Positions 1,766-21,032 of a stretch of 64,000 nt of DNA are shown here, piece by piece. The DNA comes from Zoogloea sp. (lineage in GTDB: Bacteria; Pseudomonadota; Gammaproteobacteria; Burkholderiales; Rhodocyclaceae), in the NCBI GenBank assembly GCA_016703645.1, contig JADJBR010000007.1:62001-126000 (forward strand), given 5' to 3'. The notes under the pieces were generated by a model. That model was given only the letters and a program-made list of their open reading frames with translations, had not been told where the DNA came from and did not search any database. Every line of letters begins with the position of its first letter. Position 1 is the stretch's first letter. The translations under genes and the position numbers were made by a program.

Positions 1766-4273
1766 GTGTTTACTGCGGCCGTCCGGTCGCGCGTGTCGTC
1801 TGCGAGGCCCCTGTTGTCTGAATCTCTCCCGTCGTCCGAGCACGACTGCTATCACTGCGGGCTGCCCATCCCCGCCGACGTGGATCTCCAGGTGGAGATC
1901 GAAGGGGTGCCCCACCGGATGTGCTGTACGGGGTGTCAGGCTGTGGCCCAGTCCATCGTGAGTAGTGGCCTGGTGGATTACTACAAGCGCCGCGACACGC
2001 TGCCCGAGCAAGCCCGTGAGGCCATGCCCGACGAGCTCAAGGAGCTGGGGCTATTCGATCATCCGGATTTTCAGCAGGGCTTCGTCAAGCCCATTGGTGA
2101 GCATGAGCGGGAAGCTGACCTGATCCTTGAAGGCATCACCTGTGCCGCCTGCATCTGGCTCAACGAGCAGCATGTGGCCCATCAGCCGGGGGTCACGGCG
2201 GTGGACATCAATTACGCCACCCGGCGGGCACGGGTGCGCTGGGACGAGCGCAGGATCAAGCTCTCCGACATTCTTGGCGCGGTCCAGGCCATTGGCTACC
2301 GCGCCTATCCGTATGATGCCGCCCGTTCGGAGCAGATTTCCCAGCGTGAGCGTCGTTCCGCCCTGTGGCGCCTGTTTGTGGCCGGCTTCGGCATGATGCA
2401 GGTCATGATGTACGCCTTTCCGGTGTACGTGGCCGACCCTGGCGACATGACCGCCGACATCGAGCTGTTGATGCGCTGGGCCAGCCTGATTCTTACGGCT
2501 CCGGTGGTGCTCTACTCCGCGGCGCCCTTCTTCAGCCACGCCCTGCGTGATGTGCGCTTGCGGCGCCTGGGCATGGACGTCCCGGTTGCCCTTGGTGTCG
2601 GGGCCGCCTTTGTGGCGAGTTGCTGGGCCACCTTCACGGGCAAGGGGGAGGTGTACTTCGACTCGGTCACCATGTTTGTGTTCTTCCTGCTGTGTGGGCG
2701 TTACGTGGAAATGCTTGCCCGTCAGAAGGCCGTGCGAGGGGTCGAGGAGCTGGGCAAGGCCTTGCCGGCCTTTGCTGAGCGACTGGCGGCCTACCCGCTG
2801 CCCGAGGGTGAGCGGGTGCCCGTCTCGCAGCTCCTGGTGGGGGACATCATCCGCATCAAGCCCGGTGAAACCGTGCCGGCGGACGGTGTGGTGGTTGACG
2901 GCAGCAGCGAGGTCAACGAAGCCCTCCTCACGGGTGAGAGCCGGCCGGTACCAAAGACGCCGGGGGTCGAGGTTACGGGCGGAAGCCTCAACATCGGAAG
3001 TCCACTGACCGTGCGGGTCAGTCGCACCGGCGACAACACCCGGCTTGCGGCCATCCGCCATCTGATGGAGCGAGCGTCGGCAGAGAAGCCTAGGGTCGTT
3101 CAGCAGGCCGATCGTGTCGCTGCCTATTTCATCGTGGCTTTACTGGTGCTGGCGGTGGTAACGGCTGCGTGGTGGTGGTGGACGGATCCAGACCGGGCTT
3201 TGTGGGTCTTTGTTTCGGTGCTGGTGGTGAGCTGCCCCTGCGCTTTGTCCCTTGCAACGCCGGTGGCCCTCACGGTGGCCACCGATGCGCTGGCCCGTAT
3301 CGGCGTATTGGTGACCCGTGGGCACGCCATCGAAGCCCTGGCCCGCGCCGATCATTTCGTTTTCGACAAGACTGGAACCCTTACCTATGGCGAGATGCGG
3401 GTCGAGCAGATCCGCTTGCTGGGCCGTGCCGAAGAGGCGGATGTCCTGGCGCTGGCTGCTGCGCTCGAACAGGGGTCGGAACATGCCATCGCTGCGGCGC
3501 TGCGTTTGCGGGTGGGGACCACGGCCTTGCCGGCCCTCGTCGAGCTCGCCGCGACCACGGGGCAGGGCGTGTCGGGTTCGCTGGCCGGTGTGCGCCATCG
3601 CATCGGGCGGCCGAGCTTCGTTGCCGACCTGACCGGTTTGCCGGTGCCCGAGGCTCTGCGTGAAGACGAACGCTCGGGGCGTACCGTGATTGCCCTGGGG
3701 TCGGAGAAGGGTTGGCTGGCTGGCTTCACCCTGTCCGATGGGCTCAGGGAGGACTGCCCAGCGGCTTTCGAGTCTCTGCGCAGAAAGGGCATCGCTCTTT
3801 CCATCTTCAGTGGCGATACGCCTTCCACCGTCGAGGAGCTGGGTCGCCGCCTCGGTGTTGCACAGGCCCTCGGCGGCATGACGCCCGAGGACAAGCATCG
3901 CGGCCTGGTTGCCCTGCAAAAGGGTGATGCCGTGATTGCCATGGTGGGTGATGGCGTGAACGACGCCCCGGTTCTGGCCCAGGCGCAGGTATCGGTGGCC
4001 ATGGGCGGAGGTACCGATCTGGCCCGCAATCAGGCTGACATCGTTCTGCTGAGCGGCCACCTCTTGTCTCTTGCTGACGGCGTCAGCCTGTCCCGGCGGG
4101 CGCTTGCCATCATCAGGCAGAACCTGTGGTGGTCGTTTGCCTATAATTTCACCGCGATACCCCTTGCCATGCTCGGGCTCGTCACACCCTGGATGGCCGG
4201 TATCGGCATGTCGGCGAGTTCGCTCTTTGTCGTTCTGAACGCCCTGCGCCTCCAGCGCAGGCTTTCCCGCTGA
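1766..4273 (+). CDS. ccoI: Copper-translocating P-type ATPase for cbb3 oxidase assembly (CcoI/FixI)
   Basis: An 835-residue P1B-type ATPase. In order: an N-terminal Cys-rich metal-binding region (C28xxC31 and CCTGC at 53-57), an HMA domain with CAAC at 126-129, membrane helices from about 200, the TGE actuator motif at 389-391, the CPC metal-transport motif at 490-492, DKTGT phosphorylation site at 534-538, and a GDGVND hinge near 730. The Cys-rich N-terminal extension and the ccoS gene 8 bases downstream mark it as the CcoI/FixI/CtpA branch, which exports copper for maturation of cbb3-type cytochrome c oxidase, rather than a detoxifying CopA. The GTG at 1766 gives the longest frame. A TTG at 1814 (residue 17) is an alternative start. 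The structural ccoNOQP genes are not in the window. Confidence 0.93.
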   Translation: MFTAAVRSRVSSARPLLSESLPSSEHDCYHCGLPIPADVDLQVEIEGVPHRMCCTGCQAVAQSIVSSGLVDYYKRRDTLPEQAREAMPDELKELGLFDHPDFQQGFVKPIGEHEREADLILEGITCAACIWLNEQHVAHQPGVTAVDINYATRRARVRWDERRIKLSDILGAVQAIGYRAYPYDAARSEQISQRERRSALWRLFVAGFGMMQVMMYAFPVYVADPGDMTADIELLMRWASLILTAPVVLYSAAPFFSHALRDVRLRRLGMDVPVALGVGAAFVASCWATFTGKGEVYFDSVTMFVFFLLCGRYVEMLARQKAVRGVEELGKALPAFAERLAAYPLPEGERVPVSQLLVGDIIRIKPGETVPADGVVVDGSSEVNEALLTGESRPVPKTPGVEVTGGSLNIGSPLTVRVSRTGDNTRLAAIRHLMERASAEKPRVVQQADRVAAYFIVALLVLAVVTAAWWWWTDPDRALWVFVSVLVVSCPCALSLATPVALTVATDALARIGVLVTRGHAIEALARADHFVFDKTGTLTYGEMRVEQIRLLGRAEEADVLALAAALEQGSEHAIAAALRLRVGTTALPALVELAATTGQGVSGSLAGVRHRIGRPSFVADLTGLPVPEALREDERSGRTVIALGSEKGWLAGFTLSDGLREDCPAAFESLRRKGIALSIFSGDTPSTVEELGRRLGVAQALGGMTPEDKHRGLVALQKGDAVIAMVGDGVNDAPVLAQAQVSVAMGGGTDLARNQADIVLLSGHLLSLADGVSLSRRALAIIRQNLWWSFAYNFTAIPLAMLGLVTPWMAGIGMSASSLFVVLNALRLQRRLSR

Positions 4274-4281
4274 GGATTCCC

Positions 4282-4476
4282 ATGGAAAGCCTTTACTTGC
4301 TGATACCGCTGTCCGTTGTGCTGGTTTTCGTGATCGGGGTCGTATTCTGGTGGTCGGTGCGGAGCGGCCAGTTTGATGATCTCGAAGGGCCGGGTTATCG
4401 GGTGGTGGTGGACGATGACGCTCCACCGTCGGCGAAGCCGCCGGTCAAGGAAGAGGAAGGCGCCGAGCCCCGCTGA
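4282..4476 (+). CDS. ccoS: cbb3-type oxidase assembly protein CcoS
   Basis: A 64-residue protein beginning MESLYLLIPLSVVLVFVIG, with a single N-terminal transmembrane helix (about residues 4-26). It continues with the family-typical WSVRSGQFDDLEGPGYRVV stretch and ends in an acidic, proline-rich tail. CcoS is a small inner-membrane factor needed to insert cofactors into cbb3 oxidase and is normally encoded next to ccoI, as here (8-base gap). A ribosome site GAGGATT precedes the ATG. The function is inferred from family and context. Confidence 0.9.
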   Translation: MESLYLLIPLSVVLVFVIGVVFWWSVRSGQFDDLEGPGYRVVVDDDAPPSAKPPVKEEEGAEPR

Positions 4477-4511
4477 CAAATCGAAAATTCACCCTTCTAT
4501 GTGAATGGTTT

Positions 4512-4553
4512 TTGACCCAAATCAAGACACCCGGGCAGGGAAGTGCGCATACT
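4512..4553 (+). promoter_or_regulatory. FNR/ANR box with spaced -10 element (class II promoter)
   Basis: TTGAC-CCAA-ATCAA lies at 4512-4525. It matches the FNR/ANR consensus TTGAT-N4-ATCAA at nine of ten fixed bases. The box centre is 4518.5. A -10-like CATACT lies at 4548-4553, which puts a start near 4560 and the box at about -41.5, the standard place for activation by FNR-family regulators. No gene begins within 370 bases downstream, but a terminator ends 110 bases after the predicted start. The arrangement therefore fits a small-RNA promoter. The binding of FNR is inferred, not shown. Confidence 0.72.
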
Positions 4554-4559
4554 TCGCTC

Positions 4560-4670
4560 CAAGTTGAAAACGCGAACACGAGCAACAACATGCGTTTTCG
4601 TGGCGCGATGGCGCCAAGACTAAAGTCTCTCTGTTGGGGTTGGGGGTGCGCGATGCGCACCCTTTTTTTT
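4560..4670 (+). ncRNA. Candidate FNR-activated small RNA
   Basis: About 111 nt run from the start predicted by the FNR-box promoter to the end of a T8 tract. Folding by eye gives three or four elements. An 8-bp stem pairs 4566-4573 with 4592-4599 around an 18-base A/C-rich loop. A 6-bp stem pairs 4601-4606 with 4611-4616 around GATG. A short AGAC/GTCT hairpin sits at 4617-4628. Next come an unpaired CU-rich then G-rich stretch and the terminator at 4644-4670. No credible open reading frame fits. The layout (oxygen-sensing promoter, open loop, terminator ending in poly-U) resembles Hfq-dependent regulators such as enterobacterial FnrS and neisserial AniS. I do not recognise the sequence itself, so the family is unassigned. 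Confidence 0.65.
4644..4670 (+). terminator. Rho-independent terminator of the candidate small RNA
   Basis: GGGTGCGC (4644-4651), loop GAT, GCGCACCC (4655-4662), followed directly by eight T. This is one of the best terminators in the window. It would block read-through from ccoIS or the FNR promoter into ndk. Confidence 0.9.
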
Positions 4671-4935
4671 GTTTCGTCGCCCCCTGTCTCCACACGACGA
4701 ATGCCCTCCCTGCGCCCTTGCTGTCCGGCCGCCTTGTCGGACCCGATCCGGGCTCTTCAGTCGTTCCGTGCCCGGGCTTATCTCGTGCTCCGCCGGGCAC
4801 TTGCCGCAGGCGTCCCTTGCTTTTCACTCGCTCTCATGGCGGCCTGCGCGGAAAAGCGCCGATCTGCAGCGCCAACCTGCTAAAATTCCGGGCTTTAGTT
4901 TTTCGACCATCCCTTGTCTCACTGGAGTCTGCCTC
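4671..4935. other. Non-coding leader region before ndk
   Basis: There are 265 bases between the small-RNA terminator and the ndk start with no supported gene. Two inverted repeats are visible: GTCCG/CGGAC at 4723-4742 and GTGCCCG/CGGGCAC at 4768-4800. TAAAAT at 4881-4886 could be the -10 of the ndk promoter, but I see no convincing -35. Confidence 0.4.
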
Positions 4936-5361
4936 ATGGCCATTGAACGTACCCTGTCCATCATCAAACCCGATGCCGTTGCCAAGAACGTGATCGGCCA
5001 GATCTACGCCCGCTTCGAAGGCGCCGGCCTGAAGATCATTGCTGCCAAGCTCGTGCACCTTTCCGAGCGTGAAGCCGGCGAGTTCTATGCTGTGCACAAG
5101 GAGCGTCCCTTCTTCAAGGATCTCGTTTCCTTCATGACGTCCGGCCCGGTGATGATCCAGTGCCTCGAAGGGGAAAACGCCATCGCCAAGAACCGTGAGC
5201 TGATGGGCGCCACCGACCCGAAGAAGGCCGAGAAAGGCACCATCCGTGCCGATTTTGCCGAATCCATCGATGCCAACGCTGTGCATGGCTCCGACGCGCC
5301 CGAAACTGCGGCTGTCGAAGTTGCCTTCTTCTTCCCCGGCATGAACGTTTACAGCCGTTGA
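4936..5361 (+). CDS. ndk: Nucleoside diphosphate kinase
   Basis: The product is 141 residues, exactly the usual length, starting [18 protein letters not shown]. It transfers the gamma-phosphate of ATP to nucleoside diphosphates through a phosphohistidine. The catalytic His lies in NAVHGSDA near residue 117. The frame stays open upstream to 4669, but the ATG at 4936 matches the family N-terminus and follows CTGGAGTCTGCCTC, a good ribosome site. It heads the housekeeping series and is separated from rlmN by a short hairpin-bearing gap. Confidence 0.97.
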
Positions 5362-20507: not shown

Positions 20508-20592
20508 TGGTGCCCAGAAGAGGACTCGAACCTCCACGCCTCGCGGCACTAGTACCTGAAACTAGCGCGTCTACCAATTTCGCCATCTGGGC
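20508..20592 (-). tRNA. tRNA-Leu (CAG), copy 1
   Basis: The minus strand gives an 85-base tRNA starting GCCCAGATGG and ending CTCTTCTGGGCACCA. The seven acceptor pairs are perfect (GCCCAGA/TCTGGGC), with an A discriminator and encoded CCA. The anticodon loop TTCAGGT holds CAG, flanked by the CTAGT/ACTAG stem. The long variable arm and GGTTCGAGTCC T-loop are typical of leucine tRNAs. The sequence is identical to copies 2 and 3. It reads CUG, a very common codon here. Confidence 0.97.
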
Positions 20593-20604
20593 AAAGAAGG
20601 CCGA

Positions 20605-20632
20605 ATTATAGACTATCCCTTCGTTTTTGCAA
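20605..20632 (-). promoter_or_regulatory. Promoter of tRNA-Leu copy 1
   Basis: On the minus strand, TTGCAA (20627-20632), a 16-base spacer and TATAAT (20605-20610) lie 12 bases before the tRNA 5' end. Confidence 0.8.
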
Positions 20633-20688
20633 GGAGTTTGGCGGAGGTTTTCTATCGCTGGTCTGGTAAGAACTTTGGGATGCAAAAC

Positions 20689-20722
20689 GAAGAAAGCCGG
20701 TCAATTTCGACCGGCTTTCTTC
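20689..20722 (-). terminator. Terminator of tRNA-Leu copy 2
   Basis: A 14-bp perfect stem (20689-20702 with 20709-20722, six-base loop) lies 6 bases past tRNA copy 2 and is followed in the minus direction by GTTTTGC. Its core AAGCCGGTC is shared with copy 3, and a related GGCCGGTC occurs after copy 1. Confidence 0.8.
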
Positions 20723-20728
20723 ATGAAT

Positions 20729-20813
20729 TGGTGCCCAGAAGAGGACTCGAACCTCCACGCCTCGCGGCACTAGTACCTGAAACTAGCGCGTCTACCAATT
20801 TCGCCATCTGGGC
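20729..20813 (-). tRNA. tRNA-Leu (CAG), copy 2
   Basis: An identical 85-base copy of the tRNA at 20508-20592, with the same acceptor stem, CAG anticodon and encoded CCA. The 3' end is offset 221 bases from copy 1. It has its own promoter and terminator, so it is not a processed member of one tRNA operon. Confidence 0.97.
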
Positions 20814-20824
20814 AATAAAGCGCT

Positions 20825-20852
20825 ATTATAGAACAAATTGATGCATACGCAA
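20825..20852 (-). promoter_or_regulatory. Promoter of tRNA-Leu copy 2
   Basis: On the minus strand, TTGCGT (20847-20852), a 16-base spacer and TATAAT (20825-20830) lie 11 bases before the tRNA 5' end. Confidence 0.75.
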
Positions 20853-20904
20853 AAGCCTTGCTGTCTGAAGCCCTCCGGCGTCATCTGTTCCAGATCGAAA
20901 CGAT

Positions 20905-20934
20905 CAAAGAAAAAGCCGGTCAAAAGACCGGCTT
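20905..20934 (-). terminator. Terminator of tRNA-Leu copy 3
   Basis: AAGCCGGT (20913-20920) pairs with ACCGGCTT (20927-20934) around CAAAAG. In the minus direction the stem is followed by TTTCTTTG. It lies 13 bases past tRNA copy 3. Confidence 0.82.
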
Positions 20935-20947
20935 CCTCGAAACATCC

Positions 20948-21032
20948 TGGTGCCCAGAAGAGGACTCGAACCTCCACGCCTCGCGGCACTAGTACCTGAA
21001 ACTAGCGCGTCTACCAATTTCGCCATCTGGGC
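20948..21032 (-). tRNA. tRNA-Leu (CAG), copy 3
   Basis: The third identical 85-base copy, 219 bases from copy 2, nearest to rnr. It has the best promoter of the three. Outside the tRNA body, promoter and terminator, the spacers differ between copies, so the duplication is old or the controls are under selection. Confidence 0.97.

Follow-up and report, generated by a model that had tools for sequence, protein, structure and literature searches.

The window examined here is a stretch of 64,000 nucleotides from a Zoogloea sp. contig, in which a compact unit between ccoS and ndk resembles the gene of a small RNA (sRNA) under FNR-type control. The genes and features of this region, all on the plus strand, are as follows.

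1766..4273, plus strand: ccoI, heavy-metal P-type ATPase gene, above cut-off with TIGR01525 and TIGR01511 and named from its position beside ccoS
4282..4476, plus strand: ccoS (TIGR00847), the conserved upstream neighbour
4512..4525, plus strand: FNR/ANR box TTGACCCAAATCAA, centred at about -41.5 (class II position)
4548..4553, plus strand: -10 hexamer CATACT, 22 nt 3' of the box
4560..4670, plus strand: predicted small RNA gene of ~111 nt, delimited by promoter spacing and terminator, its start being derived from promoter geometry
4566-4573/4592-4599, plus strand: stem 1, enclosing an A/C-rich 18-nt loop (4574-4591)
4601-4606/4611-4616, plus strand: stem 2, with RNAalifold two-sided changes at three of five predicted pairs and some broken cells
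4625..4645, plus strand: seed GUCUCUCUGUUGGGGUUGGGG with core UCUCUGUUGGGGUUGGGG at 4628-4645, the probable target-pairing region
4642..4670, plus strand: intrinsic terminator, with stem 4642-4651/4655-4664 (10 pairs), a 3-nt loop and T8 at 4663-4670
4936..5361, plus strand: ndk (NF001908), outside the unit and its downstream neighbour in the genus only

The box, CATACT hexamer, hairpins and T8-tailed terminator of the preliminary description were thus each found in place. A pyrimidine- and G-rich stretch (4625-4641) lies between stem 2 and the terminator stem, and the terminator overlaps the 3' end of the seed. The unit is single-copy, with one match in the 4.99-Mb genome. Elsewhere in the window, three tandem tRNA-Leu (CAG) genes are present on the minus strand at 20508-21032, spaced ~220 nt apart.

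The box at 4512-4525 is the only exact match to TTGAY-N4-RTCAA in the 64-kb window. With one mismatch allowed there are three matches versus 5.1 in shuffled sequence, and since such matches are rarer than in shuffles the box alone proves little; it is conservation across the family together with promoter geometry that raises the unit above chance. CATACT, lying 22 nt after the box, implies a start near 4560 and centres the box at -41.5, as had been proposed, and the same spacing class recurs among relatives: 148 of the 149 distinct units carry an xAxxxT hexamer at a distance of 21-23 nt downstream of the box (104 at 22, 43 at 21), and at the other offsets tested (12 to 33) it occurs in 0-27 of the 149. 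The hexamer is CATACT itself in 71 of these units. The count was made on 210 matches that have 230 nt or more of upstream sequence (four more had less), many of them from overlapping loci, which gave 149 distinct boxed units. Eleven of the 210 matches have no box, and these comprise six in unrelated organisms (Nocardioides, Ruegeria, a Deltaproteobacterium and three in Nostoc), two ompW 3' UTRs (L027 and L111) and three cases of a target on the other strand (L071, L170 and L245). Judged by its sequence, the spacing of box and hexamer is that of a class II FNR promoter, and a class II box at about -41.5 combined with a -10 element is what would mark an FNR-dependent sRNA.

Conservation of this box-to-terminator unit in relatives had been named as one of two points on which the sRNA proposal would stand or fall, and the unit proved to be conserved, mostly downstream of ccoIS. 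Using blastn with 4480-4690 as query, 150 of 199 family genomes, from 54 of 68 genera, matched at E<=0.01, and 49 gave no match to this query at that threshold. Within the genus 21 of 23 genomes have a match. Outside the genus most matches shrink to ~4625-4670, which is the seed block and the terminator. We took 30 loci, the best-scoring ones, from the family search, and CcoI and/or CcoS lay upstream in all 31 early loci (two being the window itself). Among these 31, ndk follows the unit only in L001-L007, that is the window's genome twice and five of the same genus, and because ndk is downstream only within the genus the unit has no fixed link with that gene.

A covariance model built on the 3' block was then searched against 399 genomes of the order, matching 60 genomes at E<=0.001 and 15 at E<1e-10. 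These strong matches were confined to the family (13 genomes) and two other genomes, G369 and G388, in both of which the unit lies beside CcoI/CcoS and in the first of which it has an FNR box. Among the rows weaker than 1e-10, 33 of 54 cover only model positions from 12 on, chiefly the terminator; of 11 weak-match loci inspected none had a CcoI/CcoS match, no seed was found in five, and a box was sought in the remainder. An exact scan of the GTDB species collection with TCTCTGTTGGGGTTGGGG returned at least 119 stretches, with Azoarcus, Thauera, Aromatoleum, Dechloromonas, Azonexus, Zoogloea, Uliginosibacterium, Denitromonas, Sulfuritalea, Accumulibacter, Tepidiphilus, Hydrogenophilus and others among the matches listed; Tepidiphilus and Hydrogenophilus lie outside Rhodocyclales. 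Among the first 80 of these stretches, 78 loci in named genomes extend 200 nt or more upstream; the FNR box is exact in 74 of them and CcoS or CcoI precedes the unit in 70, in keeping with the proposed siting beside cbb3 oxidase assembly genes. Loci L060-L178 were picked by the exact 18-mer and its invariance there is by construction, whereas the family blastn, the order-wide model search, the genus search and CcoI probing are free of this bias.

CcoI probing covered 20 of the 49 unmatched family genomes, and G025, which had a match. Six of the 20 have no true CcoI (best matches <=54% identical). CcoI is present in the other 14, three of which do carry the unit, with box and intact seed in G021, and with box, diverged seed and terminator in G018 and G051. 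No unit was found downstream of CcoI in the remaining 11, and the unit is therefore common without being universal, and genomes may lack or lose it. In five of the 11 (G006, G045, G071, G055, G059) an FNR box stands directly before ccoN, as identified by eye, and appears to drive it directly; three (G017, G078, G027) have an Rrf2-family gene after ccoS (one checked, PF02082), and three have neither. In G025, G018, G021 and G051 the sRNA lies between ccoS and ccoN (again assigned by eye).

RNAfold of 4560-4671 returned stem 1, stem 2, two weak helices and the terminator at -41.9 kcal/mol (z -2.76), with 0 of 200 shuffles equally stable. For covariation we aligned 19 of 21 distinct same-genus units, L198 and L199 having been omitted for their odd loop lengths before the counts were made. 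In this alignment 93.4% of stem 1 cells are paired, with 12 two-sided changes, each of these values being reached in 0 of 500 shuffles, and slid partners pair in 37-54%. Two other measures of stem 1 do not rise clearly above background, namely the number of pairs with a two-sided change (4, reached by 43 of 500 shuffles) and of further pair types (8, reached by 363 of 500). RNAalifold on the genus keeps both stems, with two-sided changes in seven of 32 predicted pairs (stem 1 having four of these and stem 2 three), so that the covariation looked for in the 4566-4599 stem is present within the genus. Across 141 distinct units the 5' domain has no common sequence, and folds with a mean z of -2.5 versus dinucleotide shuffles, compared with -0.5 for equal-length flanks downstream (n=137) and -0.1 upstream (n=141). 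The seed is partly open in the predicted folds, with UGUU ~0.8 unpaired and the flanking UCUC and GGGG 0.1-0.5. The A/C-rich loop at 4574-4591 had been put forward as the exposed target-recognition site, but it is conserved in the genus only, for which reason we set it aside; the part kept family-wide is 4625-4670, and target recognition probably lies with the 3' seed at 4625-4645 instead.

To find what the seed might pair with, its complement was sought before ATG codons in 121 family genomes, at least 100 of them with a match. In genome G073 the leader of a TusE/DsrC-family gene (TIGR03342) offers 20 perfect pairs with the seed, from -27 to -8 relative to the start codon. A DsrC-like gene of this closest group was found in 14 of 71 genomes searched, giving with G073 15 leaders (L245 and L281-L294) for testing. 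DsrC carries two C-terminal cysteines, and the proteins encoded behind these 15 leaders, which end in PAKQxxRYAGxPKPTGCV, keep only the last. The window seed pairs with 12 of the 15 at -25 to -42 kcal/mol. Tested against permuted seeds, 14 of 15 leaders fell at a fraction <=0.033 and nine at 0/300, and 12 of 13 remained at <=0.033 when two pattern-found leaders were set aside; leaders of other DsrC paralogues reached <=0.05 in one of 16 cases. When each genome's own sRNA was paired with its own leader, 12 of 13 sRNA-bearing genomes gave -25.7 to -42.1 kcal/mol, with the paired stretch between -35 and the start codon; the exception, G025, has both sRNA and DsrC-like gene but no site (-21.5 kcal/mol). 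Complementarity was weaker in G017 and G065 (-21.0 and -23.4), which have the DsrC-like gene and in which no sRNA was found. Furthermore, L071 and L170 from the exact 18-mer scan are antisense matches to at least two further DsrC-like leaders, each a perfect 18-nt complement. A conserved seed complementary to translation starts is thus seen in the DsrC-like leaders of relatives, and on this sequence evidence the TusE/DsrC-like mRNA is a probable target of the sRNA there. One candidate for a compensatory change, a seed A for G with a leader T in G069, was rejected, as G066 combines that leader T with an ordinary seed.

Eight of the 15 leaders (L245, L281, L282, L284, L286, L287, L289 and L294) also carry, ~50-90 nt before the start, a palindrome (e.g. 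ACCTGACTAAAATAGTCGG) which we take to be IscR/Rrf2-like, being within two mismatches of the motif as we wrote it.

This target is claimed for relatives only, because in the window's own genome a DsrC-like gene was not found and neither the tpx leader (-16.9) nor the pirin leader (-20.4) has a site. Among 202 start regions of this genome, with starts chosen by a simple rule and regions of 65 nt compared with leaders of 80-91 nt in the target tests, none reached -30 and one reached -28, where permuted seeds average 0.5 and 1.9. At <=-22 there were 21 against a permuted mean of 35.7, making the seed no better than permuted ones in these 202 regions. The best single candidate in the genome, at -30.7 kcal/mol, belongs to what is presumably a DUF924-type gene, and the exact 10-mer CCAACAGAGA occurs at one other place in the genome, a locus with a reverse-transcriptase-like ORF (by eye). 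By analogy with its relatives, the same mechanism may extend to the window's own genome.

Several other genes were considered as targets. For tpx, 14 of 30 leaders fell at a permutation fraction <=0.05 (12 of 28 when two pattern-found leaders are excluded), but three of the 14 (L264, L270, L272) come from genomes in which no sRNA was found and the own tpx leader lacks a site, for which reasons tpx is only suggestive as a second target. Pirin leaders of the genus reached -33 or better in five of 21, with one borderline (-27.7) and no site in the others, the window's own included; one of the five positive genomes, G589, is again one where the sRNA was not found, and pirin targeting is at most lineage-specific. 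Near-complements of the seed in the genus number 40 beside the 21 sRNA genes, versus 20 for the reversed pattern. Of 20 that we chose from the 40 and inspected, 13 lie just before a plausible start codon, belonging to pirin (4), flavohaemoprotein, HbpS-like (2), MOSC, cupin, NmrA-like and a second pirin type, and to one ORF without a name (2). Each of these genes is hit in a single genome or a handful, the fifth pirin genome having come from the orthologue search. These sites are leads, as are those elsewhere at ferritin-like and hemerythrin genes and at gapA and clpX (the last two identified by eye).

A second arrangement of the module was found in L027 (G028) and L111, in which the seed core follows the stop codon of an OmpW-like gene at a distance of 8 nt (PF03922 for L027, by likeness for L111), with an FNR box ~750-770 nt upstream of the seed. 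With seed and terminator standing behind an OmpW-like gene that has an upstream FNR box, the sequence suggests that the module can also serve as the 3' UTR of a probably FNR-driven mRNA. Such loci bear on the origin rather than the function of the unit, which could have begun as a 3'-UTR-type sRNA from ompW mRNA and been captured by a promoter of its own. There are two loci of this kind only and the stand-alone form is commoner, and we consider this descent rather unlikely, though not far-fetched.

As to function, the strongest competitor to a base-pairing repressor is an RNA that exists and is FNR-driven but whose main action is protein titration or pairing with RNase P RNA, the DsrC-like pairing being a lineage side effect. 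RNase P RNA was the recurrent seed-complement match among the matches listed: a 9-10 nt perfect complement lies in its stretch CAACAGAGA(G) in two rnpB genes (L201 1394-1757 and L208 1393-1835, both checked as RF00010), and permuted seeds reach such a complement in 2.5% and 0.7% of cases, figures that hold for rnpB alone, with no correction for the other stable RNAs. The unit also occurs in genomes without a DsrC-like gene, including the window's own. The rnpB stretch is, however, nearly unchanged between genomes and so counts as one event, not many, and the complement in RNase P RNA is probably a coincidence. Against this rival stand up to 20 perfect pairs at or just before the ribosome-binding site in 12 of 13 sRNA-bearing genomes, and we regard titration or RNase P pairing as the main route as improbable.

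A cis-acting element, either an FNR-driven attenuated leader or a read-through control of the downstream gene, would fit the promoter and terminator upstream of ndk, and in some relatives the unit is followed by a further FNR box and ccoN (by eye). Yet the downstream gene varies between genera while the unit persists, downstream ccoN has its own box (L363, L366, L370, L372), and the conserved block includes the terminator; we give this explanation very little weight. Less still attaches to a small-protein gene, whether leaderless or a short ORF, ended by the terminator. Mechanical ORFs do cross the region in the window, but the earlier view that no protein frame explains it agrees with the wider survey, in which 77 of the 144 distinct units lack any ATG in the 5' domain, and in 127 no ATG-initiated ORF of that domain reaches its stop before the transcript ends. 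An own intrinsic terminator and no shared coding frame, counting ATG starts, are what would be seen in an FNR-dependent sRNA.

We compared the unit with known sRNAs. None of 4227 Rfam families matched it at gathering score across the whole window, and at E values up to 1 in 4000-5200 the only matches were SorX, SorY and a plant-type microRNA model. The last of these concerns a long imperfect hairpin inside ccoI (window 4021-4101) which scored 26.1 of the 59 bits needed; it is surely a chance match for that family, and a strong fold in coding sequence. Rfam holds an FnrS model, which gave no covariance-model match up to E 1 in 4000-5200, nor at gathering score in the whole window. SorX (RF02784) and SorY (RF02651) of Rhodobacter have in common with the unit a CUC-CUGUUGG stretch before the terminator, but scores are well below the gathering cut-offs, at 21.0 of 46.6 bits for SorX and 22.2 of 111 bits for SorY, rising to at most 26.0 and 30.0 in two of the four relatives scored. 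Both belong to another class of bacteria and are under stress sigma-factor, not FNR, control.

The hosts of neisserial FnrS/AniS are Betaproteobacteria. Enterobacterial FnrS is an FNR-activated sRNA made without oxygen from a class II FNR site at -41.5, and represses genes dispensable without oxygen (PMC8139620, PMC3032703). The unit shares the class II promoter at -41.5 with it, but differs in having its seed at the 3' end, adjoining the terminator, and another gene as the target seen. Neisserial FnrS/AniS likewise has a class II FNR promoter, followed by a 5' stem-loop, an unstructured stretch and a terminator (PMC3032703), and the unit shares this promoter class and a similar build, although its sequence is, as far as is known, another. 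The S17/bdhR1 block is 100% conserved in various Betaproteobacteria, is thought to disrupt ribosome binding, is flanked in Bordetella by a glycosyltransferase gene and coq7, and has been tested for targets in Aromatoleum; the word FNR does not occur in that paper (PMC11722255). This Betaproteobacteria toxic sRNA (RF02278) is a different gene, and the unit gives no cmscan match to it. SicX and PhrS of Pseudomonas are reportedly oxygen- or Anr-linked sRNAs with other targets. The unit has no Rfam match to either SicX (PMC10247376) or PhrS. The accessible parts of two papers on Azoarcus (PMC6456745) and Aromatoleum (PMC9765128) treat small RNAs only in general terms, and among the literature matches listed, which mostly do not cover subscription papers, none describes an FNR-controlled sRNA in Rhodocyclales. 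The unit is apparently a new sRNA family of a known kind, an FNR-sRNA without apparent sequence kinship to the enterobacterial and neisserial ones. The Rhodocyclales counterpart of FnrS/AniS originally suggested gains support from the unit's conservation and from the stem covariation in the genus.

Because of its family-wide conservation, promoter geometry, 5' structure and the complementarity of DsrC-like leaders, we interpret the unit as the gene of an FNR-activated, trans-acting, base-pairing sRNA that would block translation of selected mRNAs at low oxygen, with a probability of about 0.85. Response to oxygen, binding by FNR, transcription itself, the sign of regulation and any requirement for Hfq are inferred. 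In the mechanism we propose, an FNR/ANR-type regulator would bind the box at -41.5 at low oxygen and drive a terminator-ended RNA of ~111 nt (median 96 over 144 units), built from a 5' hairpin domain whose structure is maintained while its sequence varies freely, then the seed, then the terminator. Pairing of the seed with the leaders of particular mRNAs, at the ribosome-binding site or immediately upstream of it, would block their translation.

More tentatively, and with rather less than even confidence, one seed and terminator module may serve most Rhodocyclales as an oxygen-controlled repressor, usually as a stand-alone FNR-driven sRNA and, in at least two lineages, by forming the 3' UTR of an ompW mRNA that has an FNR box. 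Its strongest known target would be the TusE/DsrC-like sulfur-relay gene (up to 20 perfect pairs), with an IscR/Rrf2-like palindrome in the promoter region of that gene in about half of genomes, and oxygen sensing would thus be wired post-transcriptionally to sulfur or Fe-S traffic. If proven, the sulfur-relay target and the ompW-borne form would lift the finding beyond a new family of a known kind; as it stands it extends by one the set of FNR-sRNAs described in enterobacteria and Neisseria. Rhodocyclales play a leading part in waste-water denitrification and phosphorus removal and live by switching between oxygen and nitrate. An sRNA present across the family, with a strongly conserved seed, a steady position beside the cbb3 assembly genes and a target open to checking, would offer a handle on that switch.
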